From contig JAUHXA010000010.1 in the NCBI GenBank assembly GCA_030427245.1, positions 62,001 to 126,000 on the forward strand: a stretch of DNA of 64,000 nt, given 5' to 3'. Of the stretch, positions 332 through 40,389 are shown piece after piece. Each line of letters begins with the position of its first letter. The first letter of the stretch is position 1. The notes beneath the pieces were generated by a model. It was not told the DNA's origin and did no database searches. It saw only the letters and a program-made list of their open reading frames with translations. The position numbers and the translations under genes were made by a program. The stretch is from Bacteroidia bacterium. Lineage in GTDB: Bacteria; Bacteroidota; Bacteroidia; Chitinophagales; UBA2359.

Positions 332-1420
332 GATAACTCCAGTTTGAATATTTATTGGATAAATCCAGATCCTTCCGAATTGCCTGAAGGTACATTGGTT
401 GTAGAGAACGAACTTCTGACCATTAAGCTAAAAACTAGTTCTACTCAAGAACTTATTGCCGACAATTTTACAGTTTCCATAAATGGCTTACCTGCCAATT
501 ACCGGTCAGATGCTCCTAAAATAATCGCTCATGCAGGTGTTGTCACCTATACCAATAAAGTCAAACTGGAGCCAGAAACCAATATTATAAAAGTCCGAAT
601 CAGTAATTCAACAGGCTCAGTATATTCCAATGAACTGAAAGTTATATATTCCCAGCGAAAACCCGATTTACATGTGCTTTCTATTGGCCCAAAAACAATC
701 AACTTGAAATATACCCAAAAAGATGCTGAAGATTTTGCGGATATATTTAGTGGGCAAGAAGGTGAAGGGAATAATAAAATATTTGCTAATGTATTTCCCA
801 AAAAATTAACAGGAGAAAAAGCGACCACCAATGAAATTCGAGGAGTAATTGAAGAATATTTGTCTCAACGAGAAGTCAAACCTTCAGATATGGTCGTGTT
901 GTTTGTCTCTTCTCACGGTTTTATGGAAAAGGATGATTTCAGGATTCACGGAAGCGATTACAACCCACTTCGTCGTCTTTCTACCTCAGTTTCCTTCAAG
1001 GATGATATCACTGCACATTTATCCTCCTTAAATTGCAAAAAAATTGTGTTTATTGATGCCTGTCATAGTGGAGGAGCAAGAGGAGATGTATTGAATATCA
1101 ACGAAGCCATCAAGCAAGTCAGTCAAAAACAAAACATCAGTCTCACCTTTACCTCAAGCAGCCAAAATCAACTTTCGTATGAAGACGAGACTTGGGACAA
1201 TGGAGCCTTTACCAAAGCCTTAATTGACGGGATGAAATATGGAAAAGCGGATGTAAATGAAGATAAAATTGTAACCGTAGAGGAACTGTCCAACTATGTC
1301 ACCACCAGTGTTAGAACGATGGTTCGTGAACTTAAAAATGAACTTCAAGAGCCTTCTTTCATCAATGATGACAACAAAGGCGTTGAACGCAGTTTACCGA
1401 TTTATGTGATTGAAGAATAA
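2..1420 (+). CDS. Caspase-like (peptidase C14) protein, 5' end outside window
   Basis: Partial gene: the reading frame is open from base 2, so the start lies upstream. The TTG at 344 is in frame but internal. The first ~110 visible residues are seven 15-residue repeats (SKEPTDEQPVVNNTT type). Next comes an ~85-residue stretch that looks like an Ig/beta-sandwich, then a caspase p20-like domain with a His-Gly in VSSHGF and the Cys in DACHSGG, the catalytic dyad of clan CD peptidases. A p10-like tail follows (GAFTKALIDG, then an acidic DVNEDKIVTVEEL). By family knowledge it cleaves proteins after a specific residue; substrate and trigger are unknown. The repeat is probably a flexible spacer. It converges with the TPR regulator downstream (11 bp gap). 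Domain call is firm; function is not. Confidence 0.85.
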   Translation, partial: SKEPTDEQPVVNNTTSKEPTDEQPVVNNTTSKEPTDEQPVVNNTTSKEPTEEQPVVNNTTTKEPTEEQPVVNNTTTKEPTEEQPVVNNTTTKEPTEEQPVVNNTTTKEPTDNSSLNIYWINPDPSELPEGTLVVENELLTIKLKTSSTQELIADNFTVSINGLPANYRSDAPKIIAHAGVVTYTNKVKLEPETNIIKVRISNSTGSVYSNELKVIYSQRKPDLHVLSIGPKTINLKYTQKDAEDFADIFSGQEGEGNNKIFANVFPKKLTGEKATTNEIRGVIEEYLSQREVKPSDMVVLFVSSHGFMEKDDFRIHGSDYNPLRRLSTSVSFKDDITAHLSSLNCKKIVFIDACHSGGARGDVLNINEAIKQVSQKQNISLTFTSSSQNQLSYEDETWDNGAFTKALIDGMKYGKADVNEDKIVTVEELSNYVTTSVRTMVRELKNELQEPSFINDDNKGVERSLPIYVIEE

Positions 1421-21787: not shown

Positions 21788-23041
21788 TCAAAATTCTATA
21801 CAATTCAAATTCAAGGTAATCATCTCAGACTGCAATACCGCTTCATTTTCATTTCGACCTCCAATGACCAGCAATTTCACCTCTGACAAATTCTCTGATT
21901 CCACCAAAGTCGTGCTGTGTCCATAGCGAGGAAAGGTCAAGGAACAATCCAAAGTCAGCAAGCCTTCACTTTCGGGATTAAAAAGCGTGAGTTCACTTTG
22001 TGTATCGAAGAGGTTTTTGCCTCCTGCAATGAGTATCCAACCGTTTGGCAAATTGGTGGCGGTGTGGTAAGCGATTGAAGTGGAAAGAAAAGTATTGGGT
22101 ACATTTCGGACAGGATTTTCTAGGTCGTAAATTAATATTTCATTGTGAAAATCAAAGCCATTTTGCCCGCCAATAATGACCACTCCTTTATTGCCGATTC
22201 GATTGACCGTATGACCTACACGAGGCGTAAATTTATCCCCTACATTTTTTGACTCCAAACTATTGGAGGTGACGTTATAAACTTCAATGGCATCGGTTGT
22301 TTGTTGAGTATCAAAAGCAATTCCTCCTACAATCAATACTTGATTCCCGTCAAAAAAAGTGGCTGTATGAAAGGCACGATTGACCTGCAAAGAGGCAGAA
22401 ATACTGGAACTGAAATTGGTAGGATGATACAATTCCACCCGATTATCATTGGGATTTCCCCCAATCAGCAATATTTGACTACTATTGAAGAGCCAAGTAG
22501 CGGTATGTCCTGCTCGGGGAATTTCCACTTTATCGGCAGTCCATTCGTTGTTGTTGCCATTGTAAATACTAAGTCTGTCCGAGATTTCCGAAGCATCTAT
22601 TGAAGTCCAGTCAAAAGGCATATCCAAATGCATCAAACTCAAATCGCCCTGAATTCCTCCTAACGCAAAGTTTTTTTTAGAAGTCAGATCAGCAGCTATC
22701 GCATTGAAGGCGAATTGACGCACACTGAATGGTTCTCTCGGAACTTGTCCTGTGTCTGCCAAAGCCGTTCCGTCAATATTGAAGAATTGACCAAAATTTG
22801 GCTGCAACGTTCCTCCCGACACCAAAATCTTATCCATTCCCAAAGAGTCGTTAAATAAGATTGTTTTGTGAAAAATTCTGGTATTAGACAACTCTGTAAG
22901 CCTAGGTTCATTGGCTGCAACTTGACAGGAAGTGGCATCTGTGCAAGGTTCGAGAGGAGGCAGATTCCAGAAGTTTTCGCAGGCAGAGAATAGGCATAAA
23001 AAGCAAATTAAATAGAACGATATGTGTTTTCCTATGAACAC
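21788..23041 (-). CDS. Kelch-repeat lipoprotein
   Basis: About 417 residues. Lipoprotein signal (HISFYLICFLCLFSAC), then six or seven kelch-like blades (AGHTATWLFNSSQILLIGG, AFHTATFFDGNQVLIVGG, VGHTVNRIGNKGVVIIGG, AYHTATNLPNGWILIAGG, YGHSTTLVESENLSEVKLL). A surface-exposed beta-propeller for binding is likely. Start: a GTG at 23137 directly after the caspase stop is in frame, but it would put a 17-bp-stem palindrome (23058-23103) inside the coding region and give a long hydrophilic leader. The GTG at 23041 gives a proper lipoprotein signal, so I prefer it. Third gene of a minus-strand set with the caspase-like gene. Confidence 0.75.
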   Translation of the reverse strand: MFIGKHISFYLICFLCLFSACENFWNLPPLEPCTDATSCQVAANEPRLTELSNTRIFHKTILFNDSLGMDKILVSGGTLQPNFGQFFNIDGTALADTGQVPREPFSVRQFAFNAIAADLTSKKNFALGGIQGDLSLMHLDMPFDWTSIDASEISDRLSIYNGNNNEWTADKVEIPRAGHTATWLFNSSQILLIGGNPNDNRVELYHPTNFSSSISASLQVNRAFHTATFFDGNQVLIVGGIAFDTQQTTDAIEVYNVTSNSLESKNVGDKFTPRVGHTVNRIGNKGVVIIGGQNGFDFHNEILIYDLENPVRNVPNTFLSTSIAYHTATNLPNGWILIAGGKNLFDTQSELTLFNPESEGLLTLDCSLTFPRYGHSTTLVESENLSEVKLLVIGGRNENEAVLQSEMITLNLNCIEF

Positions 23042-23057
23042 GCCCTTTCTCTTTTCA

Positions 23058-23103
23058 TTTTTTATCGCAGCATAAGGTTTAAACCCTATGCTGCGATAAA
23101 AAA
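23058..23103. other. 17-bp-stem palindrome between caspase-like and kelch genes
   Basis: TTTTTTATCGCAGCATA / TATGCTGCGATAAAAAA, with a 12-base loop that is itself largely palindromic (GGTTTAAACC). A-runs rather than T-runs follow it, so it is not a classical terminator. It may act as an mRNA processing or stability element separating the two genes. Confidence 0.6.
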
Positions 23104-23137
23104 CTGCTCTTTTTTCTTTTTGTCTATGACTTTTCAC

Positions 23138-24508
23138 TTAATCATGCAGTTGGTAAATAAAGAAATCTCCCTTGCCTTTGAAAACGGGATGCTGCTCACC
23201 TTCTTGATTACGCACCAATTCTGGCACTCGATGATTGACATATCGAAGCAACTCTTGTGCGTCTATCAAACCATCTGCTGTAATCTCCTGCAAAAGTTGA
23301 GGCGTTGTAATGAGCCTTTTTCCATTTCGAGAAAACGTGAAAGGGTCTTGTTTGTAGTCGGAAGTAAAGTTTGTGTTTATTTGATTGTCAAACACTTCCA
23401 AAATTGCAGTGGTCAAAGCACCATGTTTCCAGTCGGGATGTTCAAATGCTTCTTCGGCAGAAGCGGTCAATATCACGCTTTGTGTTTTGTTTTTCTTCAA
23501 TCGCCGTTTGACCTTCACCTTCATCGCCTTTTTTGCGCCACTCGACTTCGCCACCAAACCGTTGCTTACCAATTTTCCACTGTGACAAGCATCGAAAATA
23601 AGGAGGGAATTGCAGGGCATTTTTTCAATTTCGTTGATGATATAACTCCCCGAAATACCTGTGTTGGCTTTGTTGCCATGGTCAAAATTGTAGGGCATAA
23701 ACCGAATTTCTTCTTGTGAAATTTTTCCATACGAGGTTCTGTCACCGTGCCCCGAAAAGAACGCCATGATTACATCGCTTTTATTCACCGATTTTTTTAC
23801 TTCTTCAATGAGTGTGACGACCGCTTCTTTAGTCGCGGTGGAATCCGTCAAGTGGTATTTTTTTACATTGCGGTATAGGTCTTTTTGGTTTACAAAAACA
23901 GAATCAATGGCTTCCGCATCTTTTGCAGGATAATTCAAGGTCTGAATATCGTCCATTAGGTAGTCGCCCACTCCAATGGTGACCAAATGCAATACAGGTA
24001 AAATATTGTTGGGAGTGTCTTTGTAGAAAATGTGGAAAGTAGTTTTGTTTGTGGTTTTGCCTTTGTTCGTAACCGCCACTTCAATTTTGTTGATGCCCGA
24101 TTGAAGGGAAAGTTCTAAGATTTCCAACTGATCAATGATGGCATCTTTGTAGTAATAATAAGGAGGGAGTATTGTATAGCTGTTGGCTCCTTTCTGCAAT
24201 AATTCATTGGCTTGTTCTCTTCTATCTTCCGCATTTTCGGATAGAAATAATCCTTTCCATGTTCTCCAATTTTCGTGGTTAACCTTTGTTTGAACACTTT
24301 CGATGGGATAGTTGGAATTGACTTCAAGTATCAACGAAAACTTGGAGGAACGAACCGTATCCGTTGGATTGACCCATTGTACTTTGGGCGGATTAGCATC
24401 ATAAGGAACGATTTCGGATAAGTCCACCTCCCAACCTTGGGGGTAAAGAGCTAAACTCGAAGCCGATAGGAAAAAAGCAATACATAGTTTGAGTAGATTT
24501 GTATTCAT
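23138..24508 (-). CDS. Secreted caspase-like protease (peptidase C14)
   Basis: 456 residues. Signal peptide (LCIAFFLSASSLALYPQG), an N-terminal beta-sandwich (KVQWVNPTDTVRSSKFSLIL), then a caspase p20-like domain with LVTIGVGDYLMDDIQTLNYP, the His in MAFFSGHGDRTSYG, the Cys in LLIFDACHSGKLVSNG and a p10-like ILTASAEEAFEHPDWKHGAL. Both catalytic residues are present. The N-terminal plus caspase layout parallels the gene at the window's left edge. Lies 51 bp behind a membrane protein gene and ahead of a kelch lipoprotein on the same strand, suggesting a cell-envelope system. Substrate unknown. Confidence 0.88.
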   Translation of the reverse strand: MNTNLLKLCIAFFLSASSLALYPQGWEVDLSEIVPYDANPPKVQWVNPTDTVRSSKFSLILEVNSNYPIESVQTKVNHENWRTWKGLFLSENAEDRREQANELLQKGANSYTILPPYYYYKDAIIDQLEILELSLQSGINKIEVAVTNKGKTTNKTTFHIFYKDTPNNILPVLHLVTIGVGDYLMDDIQTLNYPAKDAEAIDSVFVNQKDLYRNVKKYHLTDSTATKEAVVTLIEEVKKSVNKSDVIMAFFSGHGDRTSYGKISQEEIRFMPYNFDHGNKANTGISGSYIINEIEKMPCNSLLIFDACHSGKLVSNGLVAKSSGAKKAMKVKVKRRLKKNKTQSVILTASAEEAFEHPDWKHGALTTAILEVFDNQINTNFTSDYKQDPFTFSRNGKRLITTPQLLQEITADGLIDAQELLRYVNHRVPELVRNQEGEQHPVFKGKGDFFIYQLHD

Positions 24509-24559
24509 AGCTCTGGATTTGAATTTCGTCTTAAAATCCTATGATTGTAGTGAGGAATT

Positions 24560-25456
24560 TCACTTTCCACATTGTCTATTCTTTGGATATTTCTTGCGGT
24601 ATTTTTTCATTTCCCTATTGCCCTTGTTCAAGACCGAGAAAGCATTTGCCAAATTTACGCCTATTGCCAAGCCCGTAAAACCCAAAAAAACTTTGTGTTG
24701 TTGGTTGGCTTTGTTGTAATAAACACGTCCCGATTCTGTATCTCCTCTGCCATAATATCGTTTTGCGGTCTCATAATTCCCCGCAGAAGTCAGCTTGGTC
24801 AATACACCTATCGCCAAAAGTCCACCAATAACATGGGTTACTTTTCCTTTTTTCTCTTGGTGATTTTCGGCTTTAGAATTTTTAGCCGAAAGTTCATTGA
24901 CCTCCCCAATCTCTACTTCTTTTTCGGGTATTTGTTTTTCCAGTTCCTCCTCTGTTTGGTTGAACTTCTTGATTTGTTGATGCCCCCAATTGGGGCGAAA
25001 CAGTGAATTTAACACCCACTTTGACACAGGTGGTTTTTCGGATTCAATAGATGTCCCAAACAATCGGATAGATTCAGGTTCGCCTGTGATCTCCCGATTG
25101 AACTGAATTTTTAACTTGCCACTTCGCCCCTTCACGCGCTTCAAATCACCACACACACTTGAATCCAACTCCATGACAAACTGATTGTTCACACACAACT
25201 GAACATAGACATCTTTGCTGCCTTTGTTGTACATTTTTTGCGCCAGTTCGTATTCCAAAATCATCATCCGTGCATCATCCTCATTTACATAGGCTTTAGG
25301 AGCAGGAACTATCGGTGAACGATCTTGTTTTTTTAGTGAATCAGTGTGTTGAATGGCACACGTTTTTAGCGTATCTATATTCGGTTGTGACAGGGCTGTA
25401 TTGCTCCAAAAATTCAAACAGTTCAATAACAATAGCCATCTCCAAAAATACCCCAT
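24560..25456 (-). CDS. Unknown envelope protein upstream of the caspase-like gene
   Basis: 298 residues, family not recognised. N-terminal signal peptide or anchor (MGYFWRWLLLLNCLNFW), a conserved-looking region at about 55-135 (DARMMILEYELAQKMYNKG, DVYVQLCVNNQFVMELDS), a charged stretch with KQIPEKEVEIGEVNEL, and two hydrophobic segments near the C-terminus (VIGGLLAIGVLTKLTSAG; FLGFTGLAIGVNLANAFSVL). Same strand and close spacing to the caspase-like gene support an operon and a shared task, possibly as membrane anchor or partner of the protease. Function cannot be told from the sequence. Confidence 0.7.
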   Translation of the reverse strand: MGYFWRWLLLLNCLNFWSNTALSQPNIDTLKTCAIQHTDSLKKQDRSPIVPAPKAYVNEDDARMMILEYELAQKMYNKGSKDVYVQLCVNNQFVMELDSSVCGDLKRVKGRSGKLKIQFNREITGEPESIRLFGTSIESEKPPVSKWVLNSLFRPNWGHQQIKKFNQTEEELEKQIPEKEVEIGEVNELSAKNSKAENHQEKKGKVTHVIGGLLAIGVLTKLTSAGNYETAKRYYGRGDTESGRVYYNKANQQHKVFLGFTGLAIGVNLANAFSVLNKGNREMKKYRKKYPKNRQCGK

Positions 25457-25989: not shown

Positions 25990-28900
25990 ATGAACAAAAC
26001 CATTACTCTGTGTTTTTGCTTGTTACTGTTGTTGTTGTCCTTCAATACCAATGCTCTTTCGGCAAATTTCTATACTCCTTTTGAGGAAGAAGCAGCCATT
26101 CCCTTATTGTTGCAAGTACCTCCTGCCAACGATGTCTGTTCTGCTGCCATATCCTTAGACCCACTAACAGCCCAAGAATATGGCATCTACTTTAATACTG
26201 GTGCCACTTCAGATGCGTCTGAATCGCTACCCGATTGTTTCGCAGACGGCGCATTGAACAACACCGTTTGGTTCACCTTCACAGGAGACGGAAATGCCTA
26301 CAATATGACCGTCACCGATTGCAACAGCAGTTCTTTTGTCCTAAGCGATTCCCAAATGGCAATTTTTGAAGGAACGGACTGCAATAGCCTCACCGAATTG
26401 GATTGCAGCGAAGATTATAATGCCACAGACTTTTATTCCCAAATCACTTTACCTACTACTGACGGTACAAGTTATTATTTGATGGTAGATGGCTATGAAG
26501 GTGATACAGGAGATTTTTGTATTGATGCAAGTATGATATTTACAGGTTCAAATTGCGAAACAGCTGAAGTAATAAATACTAATCCTTTTTTCTTTGATTC
26601 TGGGATAACCTCTACTTGTGGTTCAGGAGATGATTATAACTCAACGGATGTAAACTGTAATTCGGCCAATTTTTATATGAATGGAGATGATTTTGTTTAT
26701 AGTTTTACTCTTGATACAGATGGTTGTTATAGTTTTGATTTAGAAAATACAGATGATTGGATGGGTATGTTTATTTTAAATGGTTGTCCAGACGCTTCTA
26801 ATACTAACTGTATTGCAAATACCAATAATGCAGGAAATCCAGATTCAATTGTACTAGATTTGGCAGAAGGTACTTATTATATTGTTATTTCTCGTAATCC
26901 AGATGGTGTAAGCCCTCCAAGTGGTCAATGTGGAAATTATCAGTTATTGATACAAGAATGTAGCATATTCACCTGCGCCCCCGAATCAGACGGCACCATC
27001 TTCGTCACCACCACCGAAGACAACGGCAACAACGATTTCCCCACAGTCGGTTCACTACGAGCCGCCATCAAATGCGCCAACGAAACCACAGGCGCAAACA
27101 ACATACATTTCAACCTCACAGGAACAGCTCCTTTCATTTTCAATTTACCGCAAGTTTTACCTCAACTCACAGACAATGCTACCATCATAGACGCAACTAC
27201 CCAAACCGATTTTGAATTGGGTGATATCATTATTGACGGAACAGATGCCATCATTGGCGGTGAAGACGGATTCGATATACAGCAAGCCGATGGCATAGAA
27301 TTTTATGGGTTGGTCATACAGAATTTTCCTGATGATGCCATACGTATGTCGGGCGCAAGCAATGTCATTATCCATAACAACATCCTTATTAACAATGGAT
27401 TAAACAGTACTCATGGCAATGGAATCTACATAGAGGGAGGCTCAGAATTCGTGACGATTCAAAACAACTATATTGGCTACGACCCCATCAATGACATTGC
27501 AGCAGGGAATAGCAGAGAAGGCATTCAAATCCAAAATTCTGGCAATGTCACGATTGGCAGCTCAATAGATTATTCCTTTGGAAATGTCATTGCTGGAAAT
27601 GGAGAAGAGGGAATTTGGATTCACAACTCTTCTATTGGAATTGAAATAATGCACAATTATATTGGCACCAATGCCGAGTCAGACAATGGTTTGGGCAACG
27701 GCAATTCAGGCATTCTCATTCAAAACTCCAACTTCATTCCCCTTTATTCCAATATCATTGCCTACAATCAAGGTTATGGTCTTGAAGTAAACTCCACTTC
27801 CAATGAGGTCACTTTTAGCTCAGGTAGTATTTTCTGTAATACCGATGGTGGAATTTTTATGGAAACAGGTGGTTCACTCAACGAATCCCCTCCCAGCATT
27901 ACCACCGCAAGCCCCTCCATTATTGAAGGAACGGCACAACCCAACGAGAACATTGAAATTTACATACACAACCACGAAACCTGCACAGAAAACACGACTT
28001 GCCAAGGGAAGACATCCTTTGCAAATACAACAGCAGATGCTTCAACAGGTGAATGGTCAATTGATTTAAGCTCAGCAAACTTGACAGAAGGAATACAAAT
28101 CAGCGCATTAGCCACCAACTCGTCTAATAATACTTCCGAATTTTCAACCTGTACTACCATCACTACCTCCACCTGCTCACCCGACGACAACGGCAATATC
28201 TATGTCACCACCCTCTCCGACAATGGCGACAACGATAATCCCCCAGTCGGTTCACTCAGAGCAGCCATCATTTGTGCCAACGAAACCTCAGGGCCAAACC
28301 ACATTTACCTCGACACCAATTCCATTCCCACAGATGGACCTTACTTAATTCAGCCATTGACCGAACTGCCTTCATTGACCGATGCCCAAACCTATATCGA
28401 CTTTGCTTATACAGACAACACCTCCACTGGTTATGTCGAATTAGATGGCAGTTTATTGGATTCGTCCGTAGATACACAAGCAAAAGGCTTGACCCTTCAA
28501 GGCGATAGTAGTGAAATATGTGGATTCTATATCCACAGTTTCCCCGATGATGGAGTATTCATTGATGGCTGCGACGGCTGCAAAATTGGTTCACCAGGCA
28601 AGGGCAATATCATTGCAGGAAATGGAACAGTGAATAGCCCTTTTGGAGAACAAATCTATGTTTTCAATGCCGATAACATCAACATTATTGACAACTTGAT
28701 AGGAACAAATTTGATAGGCGATGATTTTTCGGATTATCCATCAGGAGAAGCGAGCGAAGGCGTATTCGTCGAAAATTCCTCCAATGTGGTCATTGGAGGC
28801 GATGATGCTGATTGGGGAAATACTATTTCGGGAAATACTGGCAATGGCGTTTGGTTGGAAGGCTCTGAAAATGTGGTTTTGAAAAACAACTTTATCGGCA

Positions 28901-31900
28901 CGAATGCTGAGGGAACGGCTGCAATTGGCAATACCGTTCATGGCATCCGAATCAGCGATACCTTCAATCCTACTATTGGAGGAGAAGGCATGGGCAATGT
29001 GATTTCGGGCAACGAACAAAGTGGCCTTTACTTAGAAGGTGCTGCCAATACTTCGGTAATTATCAACAACAAAATAGGTACAGACCTAGATGGGACGTTT
29101 GCTATTGCCAATGGTGACAGAGGAATTTATATGGAAAATGTGCATGACATATTTATCGAAGGGGACAACCTCATTTCTGGTAATTCTCATGATGGCATTT
29201 GGGTAGGTGACGCTTCCTTCAATGTGCAAGTAACGGGAAATAAAGTAGGAACAGATGCTACAGGCACAGCGTCCATTTTGAATGGCTGCAATGGAATTTC
29301 GATTTCAGCTGCAAATGAAGTATTGATAGGAGATTTAGACGAGAGGAATTTGATTTCGGGCAACAATCAAACAGGGATTTGGATTGGTGATGCATCTGAC
29401 AATATCACCGTCTTTTTTAATTATATAGGCACAGATATTTCTGGAACATTTGCTTTGCCAAACGGTGAGGAAGGCATTGAAATAGATAGTTCAAATAATG
29501 TGGCAATTGACACAAATATAATTTCTGGCAATAATTCTGATGGTATTCTTATTCACAATAATTCTGAATTCCCACTTATTTTTGGCAATACAATTGGCGC
29601 AAATGCGGGTGGTTCAGAGGCCTTGTCGAATAATTCGCATGGAGTAAATATTACCCAAAGTTATCGGGTGGAAATGACTAAAAACTTGATTTCGGGCAAC
29701 GGATGGGATGGGATTCACATTGGAAATGGAGCAAATCTAACCTTTGTCTATGAAAATAAAATTGGTACCGACATTACAGGAACATTTATCATTGGCAATG
29801 GATTGGAAGATAGCGATTCGGAAGGAGATGGAATAGCTATAAAAGGAGCATATCAGATAGCGATTGCAGATAACTTAATTTCTGGAAATCGAGATGGAAT
29901 AGACTTGTCGTTTATGGCGACTGAAGTAGAGTTAGTGGACAATAAAATTGGTATCGACATTACAGAGGAAAATACTCTGGGAAATACTGAGTCGGGTATC
30001 AAAATTGACAGTTCTGCGATTACATTGGTACGTGGTAACATCATTGGAGGAAATGGTGAAACGGGAATCTTAGTAGAAAATGCTTCAAATAATACGACCA
30101 TCAAAAGCAATTTCATTGGAGTAAGTGAAGACGGTACAATGGATTTGGCGAATGGAACTTTGGGGATAGAAATTTGGAATAGTATCAACACAAAAATTAC
30201 CAACAATCAAAACCAAACAGATGGAAATACGATTGCCAATCATACCATAGGAATCGGCGTTTATGGAAGTTCCGATTCGACAACTATTCACTTGAATAGT
30301 ATTTACTGTAATACCCATACAGGAATCGACATTGGAACTGACAATCCTACTCCCAATTTACCATTTATCACAAAAGCAACTCCCATTCAAATAACAGGAA
30401 CAGCCGATACTAATACCACCATAGAACTCTTCCTCCACAACGACACAGCCTGCAATGGCGTGCCTTGTCAGGGAAAAACATTCATCGGCACAACCACCAC
30501 AGACAACGAAGGAAATTGGACAATAAACAGCAGCAACTTTATTCAACCCTTAACAGTAGGACAAAACATCACTGCAACAGCCACCTTCAATGGCAATACT
30601 TCTGAATTTACCGAATGTCTGCAAGTTTGTCCAACGATTGAGCCGATTATCACTGGTGAAACCGCTTTTTGTGAATGGAATTTTACCACCTTAACCGTCA
30701 ATGATTTTAGCGATTTTGTGGCAGAATATTTTTGGTCGACAGGCGAAAACAGCCAAGCAATTGAAGTGAGCGAAAGCGGCATTTACACCGTTACCGTTTC
30801 GGATGGCGGCATCTGTTCGGGAACGACAAGCATTGAAGTGATGCAAAACACCAATCCTATAGTAACCATTTTTTCACCCAATGGCACTCAGTTTTGTTTG
30901 GGCAGTTCGCTCACCTTATTTGTAGACGTTTTGAGTACTTCCAACATTGTTGCGTATGAGTGGTCGACAGGTGAAAGCGGGCAGAATATTGCAGTGAGCG
31001 AAGGTGGTATTTTCACCCTTACGGTCACAGATAACAACAATTGCAGCGCATCAACCTCGATTTTTATTGAAGAATACGAATCGCCTACACTTCTCATTGA
31101 TGGAGACTTAGAATTTTGTAGTGGTGAAAGTACCTTGCTATCTACAAATGAAACATATATTTCTTACTTGTGGTCAAATGGTTTGCAAACTCCTTCTATT
31201 GAAGTAACAGCACAAGGTTTTTACAGCCTTATTGTAACGGACGAAAATGGGTGCAGTGCTGAAAAAGACGTTTTTGTGGTGGAAAACAACTTGCCAAGTG
31301 TGCTTATCGAAGGCGAAAACATGCTTTGCGACCCCAGTATATTGTTGAACGCTTTTACCTCACAGGGCAGTGGCGAATATTTCTACAAATGGTCAACAGG
31401 CGATACGGAAAAAGAAATAATTGTGACCGAAACAGGCACTTATTCCGTTACAGTAAACGACTCTAAGGGCTGTTCTTCCATGGATGAACACCTTGTAGAA
31501 GCGTGTATAGAAGACTGCGATGTAATCCCCTATTTTGTACTTCAAGACACTATTTGCACTTCCGTTTTTCTTACATTCAGTGAGCTCCTCACCGATAGCA
31601 CTACTACAGGAGGAATTTGGGAAATTACCTATCCAGATGGCACAATCGTTCAGCCCACAGATGATGTTTTGACATTTCCCCAAATTGGTATATACACTCT
31701 TGTCTATTTTGTATCCTCCTCTATCTGCAATGACAGTCATACCGAAATCATTTACGCTGGTTTTCCAGACGAACCTTTTTGGTCTTTAGAGGGAGGCAAC
31801 AATGATATTTGTGAAACCAATATACCAATTGCAGTATTCCCTGACAATGAAGGAGGTTACTGGTGTTGTGAAGGTTTTGAAAACTGCAATGCCACCGATG

Positions 31901-34900
31901 AAAGCTGCTTTACAATTATTGACGACCAAATGTATTTTGCCCCAACTAGCAATTCCAATGCCATTGAATCCTATGAATTATCCTATGTGACCACCTTTGA
32001 AAATTGCAGCAGCCACAGCACCAAAACGGTGAATATATACGCCCAACCTTCTGCCCCCGAAGTAAGCACCTCTACTACTACTTTTTGCTTAGGTGAAATC
32101 ACAGATGCTTTCATAAACATAACAGCCCCATCACAATTCCCCAACCAACTTTTCACCTTCAATATCTATGACGAAAGCGGAAACTTACTCATTGAAGGGG
32201 TAAAATTCAATGAGGATGTTGTAGATGTCACAGGCTTGTTGACTTCAATTGGCACGCACACTTTTTGGGTTAAGACTATAAATGGAGCTTGTGAAAGTGA
32301 GGCGGTGGATGTGAGTTTTTTGGTGGAAAGTTGTTCGAGTGAATTTACTGCAATAGACGACAACTACACCACCTGCACCAATACTCCGATCACTTTCACT
32401 CCTTTAGAAAACGATTTGGGAGAATGTTTAGAAATTATAGGACTCATGGTGAGTGGTGAAAACATTACCTTAGAGCAAATCGGTAATGAAATTACTTATA
32501 CACCTGCAACAGATTTTTTAGGAACAATTGACTTTGAATACATTCTTACAGACTGTTTAGGACAAATAGATACCGCTTTGGTGACGATTGAAGTACTTGA
32601 AACAACTCTTATCGAAGCGGTGAATGACACCGTTTATATTTGGGTTTTAGCGAATCCATTGATAGACAATACATCCTATGTAGTTTCCTTCAATATATTG
32701 GAAAACGACAAAGGGGATGGTATTAGATTGATAGACATTGACTATGATGATACATTTTTAGGAGAAAGTATGACTTTTTCAGAAAACGGAACCGTCGTTT
32801 TTCATCCAACAGAAGGAGAAGCTGGAATGAGTTTGATCAATTATACAATAGAAGGAAATGGATGTCAAAATTCCACAGTCACTTCTACGGGAACGATTCA
32901 CCTACACATACATCCTCATCTTGAGTTTTTAGATGAAGCCAACAAAGCCAATCAGATGGTCGAAACAATTTTAGGGATGTGTGTACCCTACGAAAATGTC
33001 ACCCTCACAGGTACGTCTATGTCTTATTCACAAGTAACAGATAGTCACCTATCTGATGCGGAATCGCATGGTTTGGCGGACATGAACAACTTACCCTTTA
33101 CAGATGGAATCATCCTCTCAACAGGAAACGCTTTAGATGGAATGTTAAGCCCAAATACTACAGGAAGTTTGGGGACAAACAATGGTTTGGATGGAGATGC
33201 GGATTTGATGACTGATGAAACAGAAACCTTTGATGCGACTTCCTTAGAATTTGATTTTACAGCAATTTCGGAGTCGATTTCTTTCCGTTATTGGTTTGGT
33301 TCTGAAGAATATCCCGAATGGATAGAGAGCCAGTTCAAAGACAGAATGGCGATTTTTATCAGCGGAGGGCAGTTTACTGACCCACTCAATATTGCCACCT
33401 TAGCCGATGGTACAGCAGTTGGAGTAGAGACGGTCAATCAAAACACAAACAGTGATTTTTTCCAATGGAACGAATACGGTGCATTGCCCCAATACGATGG
33501 TTTTACCACTGCACTTGAAGCCATTGCAACAGGCTTGACATTGGGCGAAACCTACCACATCAAAATCGTTATTGCGGATGTGGGTGATGCAGAATACGAT
33601 TCTGGTATCTTCATTGAAGCCAATATGGATTTCAATGATTTAGAATTTGTGGTTAGTGATGATGCGACTATCAATTTAGGAGATACCTTTAAGTTGTCTG
33701 CCGAAGTATTGAACACCACTGCAAATGTTACGTATGAATGGACTCCAACCCAAACCTTAGACAATCCAAATATTGCCAATCCCACTGCAAGTCCTACCGA
33801 AACTACGACTTATAAAGTGTCTGCAACAATAGGCGATTGTTCATGGACAAGTTTTGTTACCATAACGGTAATTGACAACCCTGTTCCCTGTACTTCTGAC
33901 AATGGCATTATCTACGTCACAACAACGGAAGATAATGGAGACGATAACAATCCAATAGTGGGTTCTCTTCGTGCAGCTATTCTATGCGCCAATGCTGACC
34001 CCGATTTGGATTTGATTCACTTCAATATCACCAATCAAGCTGCTCCATACATCATTCAACCCACCCAAACTACGCTCCCTGCTTTGGAGGATGAAGGGAT
34101 AGTGATAGATGCGACTACACAGCTTGATTGGGAAATGGGCAAAGTAGAATTAGATGGTAGTCGCTTAATTGAAGAAGGAGAAATAGGTTTAACAAATATC
34201 CGAGGTTTTCAAATCTATGTCGAACAGTGTGCGATTTACGGTTTTTATCTACACGATTTCACCAATCATGGTATAGTTAGTTATAGCCCATTCACACAAA
34301 TTGGAGCAGCCAACAAAGGCAATGTTTTCAACCGCATTGAGTTTCCGATTACTATGGACGGTGCAGCTTTTAGCAAGATTCAAGGAAATTACATCGGTAC
34401 AAATCCTTTGGGAACAGCATTTACTGGCGAAGGTAGCAATGGAGGAATTGGCATCAATAACAGTGAATTGGTTTGGATTGGAGGCGAAACCGAAGCAGAA
34501 GGAAATGTAATCAGCGGCAATACAAGCATTCTCAGCCTGAATAGTTCACCCAATTCCTTTGTCCAAAACAATCGAATCGGAACAGACATCACAGGTTCTT
34601 TTGTGATTGGAAATCAAGGTCATTTGTTGATAGCAAGTGACAGTGTTTCTATTGTGAACAATCTCATTTCTGGAAACGAAACAAGTACAGCAACCGTTTG
34701 GATTCAAAATGCAACAGGTGGTATCATTGAAGGAAACAAATTTGGAACAGATATCACAGGCAATATGCTTTTTGGCAATTTGGCAAGAGGCATCACCATC
34801 GAAAATTCCTCCAATATTTCTATCGGTAGCCCTTCCTCCGATTTCCGACAAGTTTTTGCAGGAAACGGTACAGCCATTTTGTTGAAAACTTGTGACAACA

Positions 34901-37900
34901 TCACCCTTCAAGGAAATGCCATCGGAACAGACATTGCTGGTATTCAGGATTTTGGGAACGATACACACGGATTGGTTATTGACAACTCTACCAATATTTT
35001 GGTGGGTGGCAGCATGGAAGGTGAAGGCAATTTGATTTCGGCAAATGGCTCCAATGGAGTAGTCATTACAGACAATTCGAGTGAGGTATATATTGAAGGA
35101 AACAAAATCGGGACAGACATTACAGGCAAAGAAAATTTCGGAAACGGGCGAGAAGGAATCTTGATTGACAATGCCCAAAACATCTATATCGGCAGCAGCG
35201 AAGGAGGACGTAATTTGATTTCAGGCAACTTAGAGGGCATCCGAATCGCCAATAAAAGCCAAAATATATTCATGGTCAACAACAAAGTTGGAACAGATAT
35301 AGATGGTGAATTTGCGATTCCCAACCAAGAAGACGGAATAGACATAGACACGACGACCTTCAATTTGTTTGTGGGAGATGCAGAAACGGAAATAGGCAAT
35401 CTAATCAGTGGAAATGGACAAGATGGCATTGACTTGCATGGTGCAATAGATGTCTATATAGGCTTCAATATCATCGGTTTAACCCAATCCCAAAACGAAA
35501 TTTTACCAAACGAAGAATCAGGTATTGACTTAGAACTTAGCGAAAACATCACCATCGAACAAAATACATTGGCGGGGAATACAGCACATGGGCTTTTGGT
35601 ACAAGGCGGTGCAACCTCTTTGAAGTGCAGCAACAATTTTATTGGCACTAACTCCCTGCAAGAAACAGGATTGGGCAACCAAAAAGAAGGTATTTTGGTC
35701 TTATACACCGCTCCAAATACGGCAAATGAAAACAACGAAATCACCAACAATACCATTGCCTACAATGCTTTTTCCGCTATTCAAATCAACTTCGCCCAAC
35801 ATTTTCTAATAAGTGAAAACAGCATCTTCTGCAATGAAGGAGGAGGTATTTTGTTGCGAGATGGAGCGAACAACAATCACTCCTCCCCCATTATCACCAA
35901 TGTTGCAATCAACCAAATTGAAGGAACGGCAATGGCATCCGATGTGATAGAAGTTTTTGCTGAAGATGTGAGTTGTGCAGATTGTCAAGGTAAAATATAC
36001 TTGGGAACAACCATAGCAAATGACTTGGGTGATTGGGAATTAAACGCACCTTTCGACAGTAATTTGGTGCTGACCAATGGCATGAACATCACCGCCACTG
36101 CAATTACCAATGAACACCACACTTCCGAATTTGCAGACTGTAAAGCAGTTGTAAATGTTCCCTGTGAAGGACTATCTGCGGGTGTTTTGTCCTTCATAGA
36201 GCCCTATGTTTGCTTTGGAAATACAATAGGAGGTGAAATACCTATTGAAGCTTCTGATTTCACATTGAGAGAAGGAGACGTTTTGGGCTATGTATTGCAG
36301 GATGGAAGCGGCAATGTATTGGCTTACCGAACAGATAATGCCAATTTTGGTTTTGCAGATATTGAAGGACCTGGTGGAGCGTACAATACAGAATATTTTG
36401 TGATGGCAATTGCAGGGTTGGGCAATGGAAGTGGTGAAGTAGATTTGACGGGAGAATGTATTGACCGTAGTAATTCATTTGCAGTGGTCTTTTTAGAAGA
36501 AATAATCCTCAATACCAATGTCTTATGCCAAGACAATGAACAATTCCAAATTGAGGTGAGTTTGTCGGGAGGTTTACCCGATTATATTGACGATGCAACC
36601 TACCAACTCACCGAATATGAAGGCGATATTTTTACTGGTCAAACCGTTATCGTTGGACCTTTCGATAGCCAAGAAATTATCGAATTGGAGGCGACTGATG
36701 GCAATGGATGCTTCTCCTCCGTAGAAATTCAGAACTACTCTTTAGCCATTTTTGTAGGCGTGTTAGACATCACCAATGACACTATCATCATCAGCGAAGG
36801 CGAATCCGTTCAGTTGGTGGCACAAGTATTGGGCAGCAATGTGGTGAACTACAATTGGACACCAACCGAAGACCTGAGTTTCCCACAAATTCCAAGCGTC
36901 ACCGCTACTCCCGATACAAGCAGAACCTATACCGTAGAAGTGTTGATAAACAACAATTGTAGCTTGACAGCAAACATCACGATTTTGGTATTGCCGACTG
37001 CAAACGACTGCGTAGATGCCATTCTGCCTTGTGACAACGAGCCGATTCAGTACAACAGCGGAGGAGAAGGCATTGAAGAGATTGCAGGAAAACCCGAACA
37101 AGGCTGTTTGGCAAATGGAGGCGAGCATTATTCAACTTGGGTCAGGCTTCAAATTGACAATTCTACTCCCGATAACGAAGCATTGACTTTCACCATTTCT
37201 CCCAATGATGGACAAAAAGATTACGATTTTGTGTTGTACAAATCAGCAGATTGCAGTAGTTTGGGTGCGCCTATTCGCTGCTCTTTTGCAGATTCTGACC
37301 AAACGGGCTTGAACCTCGAAGATACCGACACCGAAGACCAAGACAATGGTTTTGCGAGTTATGTAGAAGTCAATGGCGGGGAAGTGTATTATCTGATGAT
37401 AGACAATTTTAGCGGTAATTTTCAAGGCTTTACCCTCGAATGGACCAACCCAAATGTGGCGTTCAATTGCGAACCGACTCCTGAATGTTTGGCAGAAGGA
37501 GGTGAATTGTCATTGAACAAACAAAACTACTGCGACGAATCCAATATCGTGGCTACCTTGATTGGAGAAAACACCGATTTTCTAACCACCTATTTGTTCT
37601 TGACCGAAGACAGCATCATTGTTTCCAATCCCGAAATTGGGGTTTACTGTTTGGTAGCGCTCAATTATCCACCTGATGTAGTTGTGGACGATTACACCAC
37701 TATTGAAGAAATCGAAGAAGCCGTTGCAGCAGGGGTTTGCATGGACTTGAGCAACATTGTGTGTTTTGAAGTCTTAGAAGTTCCTCCACCACCGACTTTT
37801 GATTCCAAACATTGCGACCACGAAATTTTGCATGGAGATGTTATTGCCTTGGCAGATGCCGATATTCGTTGGTATGCCGCAGATACGCTTTTCACCATCG

Positions 37901-40389
37901 GAAACAATGTGCATCTCGAAACAGCGGGTATTTATCACGTCACTCAAACGCTGAACGATTGTGAAAGTGAGGTTTTGGAGATTGAAGTGACCGAAGCGGA
38001 TTTGGTATGTTTGGGAGATTGCCCCGATAATTTGGTGCAAAATTTCAGCTTTGAAGAATACGACAACTGCCCTGAATTTGCAGGAGACATCAGAGAAGCC
38101 GACTTCTGGCGTTCACCCATTGGCACAGCCGAAAGAGCCGATTACTTCAATGACTGCAATCCGACAACCAACAATTACGGTACGCCTCAAAACATAGTTG
38201 GAACGCAAACTGCTTTTGAAGGCGTTTCTTATGCTGGTTTGAAGGCTTACAACCAAGCCAACAACGATTTGATTAGTCGAGAGTACATTCAAACACAGTT
38301 AAATTCTACTTTGATTGAAGGGCAAAGCTATTGTGTTTCTATGCAAGTGAGCCTTGCCGAAAACAGCCAATTTGCGATAGACAATTTGGGAATCTATTTT
38401 TCTGAAAATCAAATAATGGGCAGTGACATTGAAGATATTTTAGAGCCTCAAATCGAACACCAAGGTTTTTTGGAAGACACAGAAAATTGGATGGAAGTCA
38501 AAGGCACATTCACCGCTACATCTGGGCTGCAATATTTAGCAATCGGCAATTTCGCATTGAACAGCGGTGTGAAAGAGGTCAATTCAACCGGCAATGGAGA
38601 GGCGTATTACTACATTGACTTCATAGATATACGTCCGACCAATGAGATAGAAAGTTTGCTGGCCTTCGATGAGAATGGAGAACAACTCAATACCGAAAGC
38701 AATACCATTGTGATTTGCCCTGACGAAACCATTCGCTTGGAAGCGACTACAACAACGACCAATTTTTCTTGTGATTTGGGATGGATTGAAGCCCTAACAG
38801 ACACCATTCACCAAATGAGCTACACCATTCAACCTACACAAGATACGACTGTTTACCACTTTTGGGTCAGCAATGGCTTGTGTGAAGTGGCAGATAGTTT
38901 GGTGGTAATTTTGGGAGATGTGGGAAGTGATGGAGATTGTGCATTGTCGGTGTGTCCACAGATACAAGAACTGACCAGTTTGCTGCAAAACTTGGAATTG
39001 AGTATTCCTTATCAAATGAATGAAATAGAAGTAGATTTGACGCAAGAAGTCGGCGGTCAGCTGCTGCAATTGGCACAAACAATTGAAGGATTTGACGAAG
39101 GTTTGTTGGCTGGTTTTGAAGTGAATATGGTGGCAGGAAGTTTGCAGACCGAGATGAATCCAGCATATCTTGAATTCCATCCCAATCGCATTGTTTACAA
39201 CAATTCTGACCCGTCCAACTATGCCTATATCGGACAAGACCAACTCACCTACACGCTTACTTTTCCTTCGTGTGGTACGGTGACTCGAAGTTTGACGATA
39301 GACTTTTTATGCCCTGATTTTGAAGTAAATGAACCTAGTAGCGATTGCCAAACTGCTTTTTTCCGATTGACCAACCCAACCATGTTTGTTTTTCCAAACA
39401 ACACCATCAACCTCATTGAAGCCAGTAATTTGGGATGGTCGTATCAATACAAAATTGAAGGAGAAAACAGTGATTGGATGGCTGCAAGTGAGGAAACTTT
39501 CTTGGAAACAAATGACAATTACACTGTTTTGTTGCGCATCGTAAAAGCCAATTCGAATCCAATTGAACCGATTTTTCAAGGCAGCTATGCCGAAACCTGC
39601 GGAGTTTCTATCGCTACACCTTCATTGGAAGGAATGACGGTGGGCATTGTAGAACGGTGTTTGGAAGATGGAAGCGTAGAATTGACAATCGCAACAGAGG
39701 GTTTGGACGAACCTGAAAACTTTGTTTTTGAGTGGTCGACAGGAGAAACGACACAGCAAATCGTTGTCAGTCCGCCGTTTGACGAAAGTTATTGGGTCGA
39801 AGCCCTGAGAATAAACGATGGATGTAGAGGAATAGATTCGGTTTTCCATATCGGACCACCAGATGTCTTCATCGAATACACCGATAAGAGTCGTTGTGTG
39901 GCAACGATTGGTATTCGCAATTCTATTCCGCAAAGCATCACCTGCTATAACGAACAGATTCCAGAAGAAGATTGCTGGTGGAATCAAGCAGAACAGGCCT
40001 ACAAATGTGAAATCAACCTCTGGGAAACTACTTCCGAAATGGCTTATGTGGTCGTGAACGACTTCAAAGGTTGTACCGACAGTGTAGCATTGTTTACCTG
40101 TCTACCTGATATCCATGTCGTCAAACCCAATCCTTCTAAGCGCCTGTTTACCATAGAGCTAACAGGTATTCCGATTCAAACGCCCATTCGATACTATGTC
40201 TATGATATAAGTGGTCGAATGGTTATGAGTTCGGACAACCTTCAAGGTTCTGGTAAACAACCTCTGGAGAATTGGCGGACGGTGAATATTGATTTGGATG
40301 AGCGTTTTGTGAGCGGAATGTATTTTGTGCAGTTTTCTGTGGAGGATTGGGCAGAGCCTTTGAGGACGAAGTTGGTGAAGGGGGAGTAA
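25990..40389 (+). CDS. Giant secreted multi-domain protein (4799 residues) with beta-helix blocks and T9SS sorting domain
   Basis: Signal peptide (ITLCFCLLLLLLSFNTNALS), then two N-terminal sugar- or peptide-binding-like sandwiches (to ~325). Three CSLREAI-like blocks (VTTTEDNGNN...VGSLRAAIKCAN at about 327, 727 and 2632) each lead into a right-handed parallel beta-helix made of NxIGTDxxGT and LISGNxxxGI coils (about 330-640, 730-1530, 2640-3390). Between them are Ig-like WSTGE...YSVTVTDxxGC repeats (about 1550-1840) and a choice-of-anchor L-like domain (about 2320-2550). Later come a PPC-like sandwich (about 3670-3820), a carbohydrate-binding-like NFSFEEYDNCP domain (about 4010-4220) and a T9SS type A tail (VVKPNPSKRLFTIEL...). 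Probably a cell-surface or released adhesin or polysaccharide-binding protein. Domain edges are approximate. Confidence 0.9.
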   Translation: MNKTITLCFCLLLLLLSFNTNALSANFYTPFEEEAAIPLLLQVPPANDVCSAAISLDPLTAQEYGIYFNTGATSDASESLPDCFADGALNNTVWFTFTGDGNAYNMTVTDCNSSSFVLSDSQMAIFEGTDCNSLTELDCSEDYNATDFYSQITLPTTDGTSYYLMVDGYEGDTGDFCIDASMIFTGSNCETAEVINTNPFFFDSGITSTCGSGDDYNSTDVNCNSANFYMNGDDFVYSFTLDTDGCYSFDLENTDDWMGMFILNGCPDASNTNCIANTNNAGNPDSIVLDLAEGTYYIVISRNPDGVSPPSGQCGNYQLLIQECSIFTCAPESDGTIFVTTTEDNGNNDFPTVGSLRAAIKCANETTGANNIHFNLTGTAPFIFNLPQVLPQLTDNATIIDATTQTDFELGDIIIDGTDAIIGGEDGFDIQQADGIEFYGLVIQNFPDDAIRMSGASNVIIHNNILINNGLNSTHGNGIYIEGGSEFVTIQNNYIGYDPINDIAAGNSREGIQIQNSGNVTIGSSIDYSFGNVIAGNGEEGIWIHNSSIGIEIMHNYIGTNAESDNGLGNGNSGILIQNSNFIPLYSNIIAYNQGYGLEVNSTSNEVTFSSGSIFCNTDGGIFMETGGSLNESPPSITTASPSIIEGTAQPNENIEIYIHNHETCTENTTCQGKTSFANTTADASTGEWSIDLSSANLTEGIQISALATNSSNNTSEFSTCTTITTSTCSPDDNGNIYVTTLSDNGDNDNPPVGSLRAAIICANETSGPNHIYLDTNSIPTDGPYLIQPLTELPSLTDAQTYIDFAYTDNTSTGYVELDGSLLDSSVDTQAKGLTLQGDSSEICGFYIHSFPDDGVFIDGCDGCKIGSPGKGNIIAGNGTVNSPFGEQIYVFNADNINIIDNLIGTNLIGDDFSDYPSGEASEGVFVENSSNVVIGGDDADWGNTISGNTGNGVWLEGSENVVLKNNFIGTNAEGTAAIGNTVHGIRISDTFNPTIGGEGMGNVISGNEQSGLYLEGAANTSVIINNKIGTDLDGTFAIANGDRGIYMENVHDIFIEGDNLISGNSHDGIWVGDASFNVQVTGNKVGTDATGTASILNGCNGISISAANEVLIGDLDERNLISGNNQTGIWIGDASDNITVFFNYIGTDISGTFALPNGEEGIEIDSSNNVAIDTNIISGNNSDGILIHNNSEFPLIFGNTIGANAGGSEALSNNSHGVNITQSYRVEMTKNLISGNGWDGIHIGNGANLTFVYENKIGTDITGTFIIGNGLEDSDSEGDGIAIKGAYQIAIADNLISGNRDGIDLSFMATEVELVDNKIGIDITEENTLGNTESGIKIDSSAITLVRGNIIGGNGETGILVENASNNTTIKSNFIGVSEDGTMDLANGTLGIEIWNSINTKITNNQNQTDGNTIANHTIGIGVYGSSDSTTIHLNSIYCNTHTGIDIGTDNPTPNLPFITKATPIQITGTADTNTTIELFLHNDTACNGVPCQGKTFIGTTTTDNEGNWTINSSNFIQPLTVGQNITATATFNGNTSEFTECLQVCPTIEPIITGETAFCEWNFTTLTVNDFSDFVAEYFWSTGENSQAIEVSESGIYTVTVSDGGICSGTTSIEVMQNTNPIVTIFSPNGTQFCLGSSLTLFVDVLSTSNIVAYEWSTGESGQNIAVSEGGIFTLTVTDNNNCSASTSIFIEEYESPTLLIDGDLEFCSGESTLLSTNETYISYLWSNGLQTPSIEVTAQGFYSLIVTDENGCSAEKDVFVVENNLPSVLIEGENMLCDPSILLNAFTSQGSGEYFYKWSTGDTEKEIIVTETGTYSVTVNDSKGCSSMDEHLVEACIEDCDVIPYFVLQDTICTSVFLTFSELLTDSTTTGGIWEITYPDGTIVQPTDDVLTFPQIGIYTLVYFVSSSICNDSHTEIIYAGFPDEPFWSLEGGNNDICETNIPIAVFPDNEGGYWCCEGFENCNATDESCFTIIDDQMYFAPTSNSNAIESYELSYVTTFENCSSHSTKTVNIYAQPSAPEVSTSTTTFCLGEITDAFINITAPSQFPNQLFTFNIYDESGNLLIEGVKFNEDVVDVTGLLTSIGTHTFWVKTINGACESEAVDVSFLVESCSSEFTAIDDNYTTCTNTPITFTPLENDLGECLEIIGLMVSGENITLEQIGNEITYTPATDFLGTIDFEYILTDCLGQIDTALVTIEVLETTLIEAVNDTVYIWVLANPLIDNTSYVVSFNILENDKGDGIRLIDIDYDDTFLGESMTFSENGTVVFHPTEGEAGMSLINYTIEGNGCQNSTVTSTGTIHLHIHPHLEFLDEANKANQMVETILGMCVPYENVTLTGTSMSYSQVTDSHLSDAESHGLADMNNLPFTDGIILSTGNALDGMLSPNTTGSLGTNNGLDGDADLMTDETETFDATSLEFDFTAISESISFRYWFGSEEYPEWIESQFKDRMAIFISGGQFTDPLNIATLADGTAVGVETVNQNTNSDFFQWNEYGALPQYDGFTTALEAIATGLTLGETYHIKIVIADVGDAEYDSGIFIEANMDFNDLEFVVSDDATINLGDTFKLSAEVLNTTANVTYEWTPTQTLDNPNIANPTASPTETTTYKVSATIGDCSWTSFVTITVIDNPVPCTSDNGIIYVTTTEDNGDDNNPIVGSLRAAILCANADPDLDLIHFNITNQAAPYIIQPTQTTLPALEDEGIVIDATTQLDWEMGKVELDGSRLIEEGEIGLTNIRGFQIYVEQCAIYGFYLHDFTNHGIVSYSPFTQIGAANKGNVFNRIEFPITMDGAAFSKIQGNYIGTNPLGTAFTGEGSNGGIGINNSELVWIGGETEAEGNVISGNTSILSLNSSPNSFVQNNRIGTDITGSFVIGNQGHLLIASDSVSIVNNLISGNETSTATVWIQNATGGIIEGNKFGTDITGNMLFGNLARGITIENSSNISIGSPSSDFRQVFAGNGTAILLKTCDNITLQGNAIGTDIAGIQDFGNDTHGLVIDNSTNILVGGSMEGEGNLISANGSNGVVITDNSSEVYIEGNKIGTDITGKENFGNGREGILIDNAQNIYIGSSEGGRNLISGNLEGIRIANKSQNIFMVNNKVGTDIDGEFAIPNQEDGIDIDTTTFNLFVGDAETEIGNLISGNGQDGIDLHGAIDVYIGFNIIGLTQSQNEILPNEESGIDLELSENITIEQNTLAGNTAHGLLVQGGATSLKCSNNFIGTNSLQETGLGNQKEGILVLYTAPNTANENNEITNNTIAYNAFSAIQINFAQHFLISENSIFCNEGGGILLRDGANNNHSSPIITNVAINQIEGTAMASDVIEVFAEDVSCADCQGKIYLGTTIANDLGDWELNAPFDSNLVLTNGMNITATAITNEHHTSEFADCKAVVNVPCEGLSAGVLSFIEPYVCFGNTIGGEIPIEASDFTLREGDVLGYVLQDGSGNVLAYRTDNANFGFADIEGPGGAYNTEYFVMAIAGLGNGSGEVDLTGECIDRSNSFAVVFLEEIILNTNVLCQDNEQFQIEVSLSGGLPDYIDDATYQLTEYEGDIFTGQTVIVGPFDSQEIIELEATDGNGCFSSVEIQNYSLAIFVGVLDITNDTIIISEGESVQLVAQVLGSNVVNYNWTPTEDLSFPQIPSVTATPDTSRTYTVEVLINNNCSLTANITILVLPTANDCVDAILPCDNEPIQYNSGGEGIEEIAGKPEQGCLANGGEHYSTWVRLQIDNSTPDNEALTFTISPNDGQKDYDFVLYKSADCSSLGAPIRCSFADSDQTGLNLEDTDTEDQDNGFASYVEVNGGEVYYLMIDNFSGNFQGFTLEWTNPNVAFNCEPTPECLAEGGELSLNKQNYCDESNIVATLIGENTDFLTTYLFLTEDSIIVSNPEIGVYCLVALNYPPDVVVDDYTTIEEIEEAVAAGVCMDLSNIVCFEVLEVPPPPTFDSKHCDHEILHGDVIALADADIRWYAADTLFTIGNNVHLETAGIYHVTQTLNDCESEVLEIEVTEADLVCLGDCPDNLVQNFSFEEYDNCPEFAGDIREADFWRSPIGTAERADYFNDCNPTTNNYGTPQNIVGTQTAFEGVSYAGLKAYNQANNDLISREYIQTQLNSTLIEGQSYCVSMQVSLAENSQFAIDNLGIYFSENQIMGSDIEDILEPQIEHQGFLEDTENWMEVKGTFTATSGLQYLAIGNFALNSGVKEVNSTGNGEAYYYIDFIDIRPTNEIESLLAFDENGEQLNTESNTIVICPDETIRLEATTTTTNFSCDLGWIEALTDTIHQMSYTIQPTQDTTVYHFWVSNGLCEVADSLVVILGDVGSDGDCALSVCPQIQELTSLLQNLELSIPYQMNEIEVDLTQEVGGQLLQLAQTIEGFDEGLLAGFEVNMVAGSLQTEMNPAYLEFHPNRIVYNNSDPSNYAYIGQDQLTYTLTFPSCGTVTRSLTIDFLCPDFEVNEPSSDCQTAFFRLTNPTMFVFPNNTINLIEASNLGWSYQYKIEGENSDWMAASEETFLETNDNYTVLLRIVKANSNPIEPIFQGSYAETCGVSIATPSLEGMTVGIVERCLEDGSVELTIATEGLDEPENFVFEWSTGETTQQIVVSPPFDESYWVEALRINDGCRGIDSVFHIGPPDVFIEYTDKSRCVATIGIRNSIPQSITCYNEQIPEEDCWWNQAEQAYKCEINLWETTSEMAYVVVNDFKGCTDSVALFTCLPDIHVVKPNPSKRLFTIELTGIPIQTPIRYYVYDISGRMVMSSDNLQGSGKQPLENWRTVNIDLDERFVSGMYFVQFSVEDWAEPLRTKLVKGE

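Follow-up and report, generated by a model that had tools for sequence, protein, structure and literature searches.

The 64,000-nucleotide (nt) stretch of Bacteroidia bacterium DNA analysed here (Bacteroidota; Chitinophagales; UBA2359; GenBank assembly GCA_030427245.1, contig JAUHXA010000010.1, positions 62,001 to 126,000), which as a whole is called the window in the following, carries on its minus strand three genes for a two-helix envelope protein (2H), a secreted caspase-fold protease and a kelch-propeller lipoprotein. An initial annotation had placed a caspase-like protease between the other two genes on the same strand, and the open reading frames (ORFs) bear this out at the positions given there. 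The locus comprises, with protein lengths in amino acids (aa):

24560..25456, minus strand: 2H, two-helix envelope protein, 298 aa, no known family
23138..24508, minus strand: secreted caspase-fold protease (Peptidase_C14, metacaspase-like), 456 aa, with His254/Cys308 and the acidic residues D197 and D306
23058..23103, no strand: 46-nt near-perfect palindrome between the caspase and kelch genes, resembling a bidirectional terminator or a dispersed element
21788..23041, minus strand: kelch-propeller lipoprotein, 417 aa from a GTG at 23041; the ORF opens at 23137
25990..40389, plus strand: giant secreted surface protein, 4799 aa, divergent from the cassette and proposed as its partner or substrate

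Each of the window proteins was searched against 60 genomes, namely the window's own genome and relatives, and the neighbourhoods of the matches were then read. Within the family, which is represented by 20 genomes (103.6 Mb), nine loci that contain all three parts were found in five genomes from four genera and in four gene orders. The initial annotation had regarded the three genes as one set, had proposed to look for conservation of their order in relatives and had named their separate occurrence there as the result that would speak against it. When this was checked, the set proved to be conserved: the linkage holds across the nine loci, whereas a fixed order does not, as there are four orders and two caspase-2H fusions. 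Six of the loci, termed main-type trios, reside in three genomes (the window; G002:C79, C116 and C228; G005:C171 and C490). Their genes are co-directional, adjoining ones overlapping by 4 nt at the closest and lying 119 nt apart at the widest, with no extra genes between them in the loci read, and are arranged as 2H-caspase-kelch in three cases, kelch-2H-caspase in two and 2H-kelch-caspase in one. Compared with their window counterparts, the 2H proteins are 18-25%, the kelch proteins 22-31% and the caspases 19-31% identical. The remaining three loci are second-type trios with another kelch subtype that were found via the 2H profile (G005:C124, G013:C496 and G004:C378). In the latter two, the 2H segment lies in one reading frame with the caspase (784 and 781 aa) and is followed by the kelch gene, which in G004:C378 was found with a two-sequence profile (1e-76) and not by PF24681; G005:C124 shows the order caspase, 2H, kelch. 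Since most pairs of loci share 15-35% protein identity, with only G002:C116 and C228 being mutually close, and since gene order is shuffled, the linkage outlasts both sequence and order. As such, the 2H, caspase and kelch genes are shown to be evolutionarily linked as a set whose order varies and which is partly fused.

The counts agree with this picture. Six of the seven window-type kelch genes in the family (E <= 1e-15) belong to complete trios, and the twelve matches of the 2H profile in the 20 genomes consist of the six main-type trios, the three second-type trios and three others. Of 42 distinct places matched by the kelch model PF24681, eight have a caspase no more than 4 kb away, against 0.30 expected (P ~1e-9), a count that takes in caspases added by hand after the trios had been found; when the caspases are restricted to the 68 places that the blind PF00656 search returned, four are near a caspase against 0.27 expected (P 1.8e-4). 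The prefilter of the genome search was loose and misses genes, so absences are soft: four trio caspases (G002:C79, C116, C228 and G005:C171) were not among the matches of the blind search, and the 2H profile search did not list the 2H gene of G007:C4. Wide flanks were read for all but a few of the blind-search caspase places (the exceptions include G015:C194, G010:C119 and G011:C253). A mirror-tree analysis gave Pearson correlations of 0.79-0.93 among the three proteins, but a single close pair accounts for these values (Spearman -0.13 to 0.38), and the analysis was rejected as evidence.

Beyond the family, the 2H profile matched ten of 395 class-wide genomes besides the window's, nine of which were examined (G345 was left out). 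In three of the nine, which represent the three best matches (G082, G125 and G160, all of family f45, outside the window's order), 2H and caspase genes are adjacent, and these pairs show no kelch match. The fourth-best match, G278, ends at a contig end, and the other five examined have no caspase in view. The kelch profile, applied to the same 395 genomes at E <= 1e-20, returned the window and one weak match (G143) without adjoining caspase or 2H. Hence 2H and caspase form the wider-spread pair, and the kelch protein is the partner seen in this family.

Turning to the individual proteins, the window caspase, to which the initial annotation had attributed an intact His/Cys pair, indeed retains His254 and Cys308 and matches PF00656 (Peptidase_C14) with an E-value of 1e-15 and 58.5 bits (cut-off 21.4); four of the other five main-type caspases also score above the cut-off. 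The alignment of the six main-type trio caspases shows no variation at His254-Gly255, Asp306, Cys308 or D197, and D197 and D306 align in sequence with Asp residues of plant and yeast metacaspases. Ahead of the C14 domain lies an extra N-terminal region, and the N-terminus looks by eye like a signal peptide, as it does in all eleven caspases inspected. The solved structures nearest to the caspase profile are metacaspases, and Foldseek placed MALT1, a yeast metacaspase and Geobacter GSU0716 on top for a structure model that served this search only (mean predicted local distance difference test, pLDDT, 53, with values of at least 70 over much of the range 171-310; predicted template modelling score 0.56). 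In TbMC2, two Asp residues (Asp95/Asp211) accept basic residues, and orthocaspases cleave after basic residues, according to PMC6426788. Because the basic-accepting Asp pair of TbMC2 has invariant counterparts in D197 and D306, cleavage after Arg or Lys would be expected for the window caspase. PADLOC assigned the three caspases tested only to its generic 'caspase' model, naming no defence protein, and returned nothing for the other four of the seven proteins submitted (the kelch protein, two 2H proteins and the papain-like protease considered below); among viral contigs, two pattern matches and no relative of the window caspase were obtained. As a separate observation, Peptidase_C14 matches number 14 in the window's own genome (G000) and 14 in G005, and none were obtained in five of the 20 family members with a search that is known to miss some.

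The kelch protein matches PF24681 with 105 bits (cut-off 50), PF13418 with 68 bits (cut-off 21.6) and further Kelch models. Its ORF opens immediately behind the caspase stop, at 23137, a start that we judge to lie too far upstream. More probable as the start is an in-frame GTG at 23041, since signal and lipobox are then N-terminal and the palindrome at 23058-23103 is most likely not coding. The window protein has a lipobox-like FSAC at residues 18-21. The lipobox pattern is present in five of the nine kelch proteins, with one of these matches lying ahead of the likely Cys, and in the other four a Cys ends the signal stretch by eye. The palindrome consists of 23+23 nt with a predicted hairpin of -31.4 kcal/mol (z -9.3) and belongs to a family of 36-46 nt with a core near GGGTTTAAACCC, of which the window's own 7.58-Mb genome holds six copies at up to three mismatches. 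The other five (C14:156, C35:56200, C159:36060, C20:82862 and C124:27086) are none of them near Peptidase_C14 matches found in that genome. The palindrome resembles a dispersed element or a bidirectional terminator, and its position between the caspase and kelch genes argues against simple co-transcription of all three genes here, for which reason we do not claim a single operon with one promoter. A consensus scan for promoters and terminators was uninformative (18 vs 14.6 expected; 3 vs 5.9).

For 2H, no family was found in Pfam, NCBIfam or PADLOC. Its N-terminal segment is signal-like by eye, its middle part is probably beta-rich, and two moderately hydrophobic segments follow (residues 206-224 and 258-276) that by eye contain many small residues. 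With the threshold used, nine of twelve 2H proteins, including the window's, have two hydrophobic segments beyond the N-terminal one, L044 and L082 have one, and L086 has none. The tail is rich in Lys and Arg: the K/R fraction after the last hydrophobic segment, over at most 30 residues, is 0.27-0.65 in the six main-type proteins; in the three f45 proteins it is low, 0.10-0.17. An AlphaFold2 structure computed with three sequences reached a pLDDT of 37 and was not used. Independently of this, a hydrophobic C-terminus whose last residue is Phe, as in outer-membrane proteins, is seen in several 2H proteins (L042, L043, L045, L086, L151-L153, L158 and the fused L080); the window 2H does not have it.

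The initial annotation drew no link between the gene set and the adjacent giant surface protein. This protein contains beta-helix/NosD repeats, choice-of-anchor L and PKD domains and a marginal type A tail of the type IX secretion system (T9SS; 23.2 bits, cut-off 23). In all six main-type loci, the trio is divergent from a long protein 183-534 bp away. Besides the 4799 aa of the window, these proteins measure at least 464 (contig end), at least 1656 (to a run of N), 894, at least 1062 and at least 1500 aa (both to contig ends). A signal rule flags five of the six, and in the L042 giant a signal-like stretch can be made out by eye at some distance from the N-terminus. The giants match SprB (L042), SdrD_B and Ig_7 (L045), Ig_7 (L044), LRR (L041) and CHU_C/T9SS type B (L043), and a segment of some 150 residues from the window giant was found, among the ORFs searched, only in trio-side giants (window, L041 and L045), with a weaker match in L044. 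A divergent upstream neighbour of at least 700 aa accompanies five of six main-type trios, the neighbour of the sixth being cut by a contig end at 464 aa, against two of 43 control caspase genes (Fisher P 6e-5), the controls being caspase genes whose upstream neighbour was visible, some of which share one neighbour. Counting any upstream neighbour of this length, the controls reach 5/43; for comparison, 22/312 of the non-caspase genes in these loci are themselves of this length. The f45 pairs have a long repeat protein upstream on the same strand, in L153 with a small gene in between. The long proteins of L151 and L153 have cut N-termini, and that of L152 carries a signal and collagen repeats. 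A side observation concerns two secreted proteins (L041 6966-9911 and L083 1-1932) that otherwise look unlike each other: both have a dockerin-like C-terminus with 'IG(I/V)xEIRY' as its last residues, which may be a sorting tag.

What could such a set of genes be good for? From our point of view, it would be a conserved envelope protease cassette that serves the neighbouring giant surface protein, a reading to which we give somewhat less than even weight. Because of their signal-like N-termini, all three proteins would act in the envelope. The kelch lipoprotein would be held in the outer membrane and bind the target, 2H may be a membrane-embedded scaffold that holds the caspase, and the caspase, with the acidic pocket residues of metacaspases kept, would cut after Arg/Lys under guidance of the propeller. 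The likeliest target would be the adjoining giant, for its maturation, anchoring or release, and every cassette would serve a giant of its own. We infer the compartment, the specificity and the substrate of the cassette proteins. The recognition-and-cleavage system at the cell surface that the initial annotation had imagined would fit this scheme. A more specific version, which we hold to be somewhat less probable, is a metacaspase-based system for surface processing, in which maturation, anchoring or shedding of each adhesin-like giant falls to a caspase/2H/kelch cassette dedicated to it, as a counterpart of Lap/Dvh with a different protease and sensor.

A number of points weigh against this assignment. 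The 700-aa threshold was set after the loci had been seen, four of the six giants are incomplete owing to a contig end or a run of N, and long secreted proteins are frequent in these genomes in general. The second-type trios G004:C378 and G005:C124 have no adjoining giant, and G013:C496 begins 328 nt from a contig end, so that its neighbour is not visible. Incomplete sets are also seen: the seventh window-type kelch gene (G007:C4) has a 2H gene and no caspase within the 9 kb examined, three of the twelve family 2H matches (G005:C11, G009:C35 and G013:C16) have neither caspase nor kelch gene in the stretch examined, the 2H relative L158 has neither in view, and around kelch relatives outside the family (L055/L087 and L058-L060) the stretches examined show neither caspase nor 2H. 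In addition, the caspase of G002:C79 has no PF00656 match at E 0.01, and the palindrome may uncouple kelch transcription from that of the caspase in this genome.

It can also be imagined that the giant is merely another surface protein and that propeller and protease capture and cut external proteins, as nutritional or foreign-protein proteolysis at the surface, much as the initial annotation had suggested. A kelch lipoprotein and an exported protease suit such a role, as does a secreted papain-like protease (PF00112) with its Cys, His and Asn positions kept, which is encoded downstream in two of the nine trio loci (G002:C79 and G005:C171); its profile has 32 members in the 20 genomes, and for ten of them a caspase from the blind search is no more than 5 kb away, compared with 0.41 expected. 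However, there are no transport genes within the main-type sets read, and the divergent giant is consistent in the main type, so we consider this role rather unlikely. Simpler still, the loci could be copies of one ancestral segment that share a neighbourhood without function. Paralogy does contribute, as G002 and G005 hold three copies each, and the mirror-tree signal depends on one close pair. Nevertheless, four orders, two fusions, a second kelch subtype in three loci and a linkage that persists at mostly 15-35% identity make this the least probable of the explanations.

Somewhat less improbable, and still quite unlikely to us, is an envelope death or defence module in which the caspase cuts or frees the basic tail of 2H and the two-helix hairpin forms a pore in gasdermin-like fashion, with the kelch protein as sensor. 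The K/R-rich stretch behind the last hydrophobic segment of main-type 2H would suit the predicted Arg/Lys protease, the segments are rich in small residues by eye, and a caspase with a small membrane protein is known from conflict systems such as the two-gene EACC1 system (PMC7159879). Yet a K/R-rich tail behind a membrane segment may simply reflect topology, and the f45 2H proteins are poor in these residues. The signal-like N-termini of the eleven caspases make the cytoplasm an unexpected site, PADLOC gives only its generic model for the three caspases tested, and protease and 2H form one chain in G004 and G013.

With metacaspases and orthocaspases (Yca1, AtMC4 and GSU0716), the window caspase has in common the catalytic fold, the His/Cys dyad and the acidic residues expected to accept Arg/Lys; it differs from them by its signal-like N-terminus, its extra N-terminal region and the tie of its gene to those of the kelch lipoprotein and 2H. 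The EACC1-caspase system (PMC7159879) likewise pairs a caspase gene with one for a small membrane protein, and the EACC1 membrane segment is rich in small residues, as is that of 2H by eye. However, EACC1 has one transmembrane helix and 2H mostly two segments, and variable effector domains go with the caspase there. As the window caspase scores 52 bits with NF047832 (EACC1-associated caspase; cut-off 140) and the partner is different, the cassette is, as judged by profile scores, not an EACC1-caspase system. Lap/Dvh adhesin release (DvhG/DvhD, PMC13090378; LapG/LapD) resembles the scheme proposed here in logic only, in that an envelope protease would act on co-encoded large adhesins. It relies on a LapG-type protease and a cyclic di-GMP receptor; the three genes match Kelch, Peptidase_C14 and no family, respectively, and neither of the Lap-type components, so that the cassette could at most be an analogue.

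Within the T9SS, a protease of the caspase-like clan is a general component, namely the gingipain-fold sortase PorU, which acts on T9SS surface cargo. Bacterial caspase homologues are mostly treated as intracellular stress, death or defence proteases. No description of a caspase/kelch/2H set was found in the open-licence papers searched, and the word 'kelch' is absent from the main text of PMC7159879, PMC4933709 and PMC6426788. The recurrence of the set in related bacteria, often next to a giant surface protein, suggests a previously undescribed surface-proteolysis module. If the proposal holds true, a conserved caspase that is exported and whose gene, together with those of its lipoprotein and membrane partners, adjoins that of a giant surface protein would point to an envelope role and to regulated adhesin processing. 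The cassette further gives a concrete context to 2H, a small envelope protein without known family.

Lastly, papain-like and caspase genes also meet close to the window itself: at L046 4805-11420 (C39:56805-63420 of the window's own contig), the genes of a secreted papain-like protease, a TPR protein and two TPR-caspase paralogues lie in a row that starts 5.2 kb left of the window and has its right end at window positions 2-1420. The second of these TPR-caspases contains a tandem-repeated 'NNTT(S/T)KEPT(D/E)EQPVV' linker.

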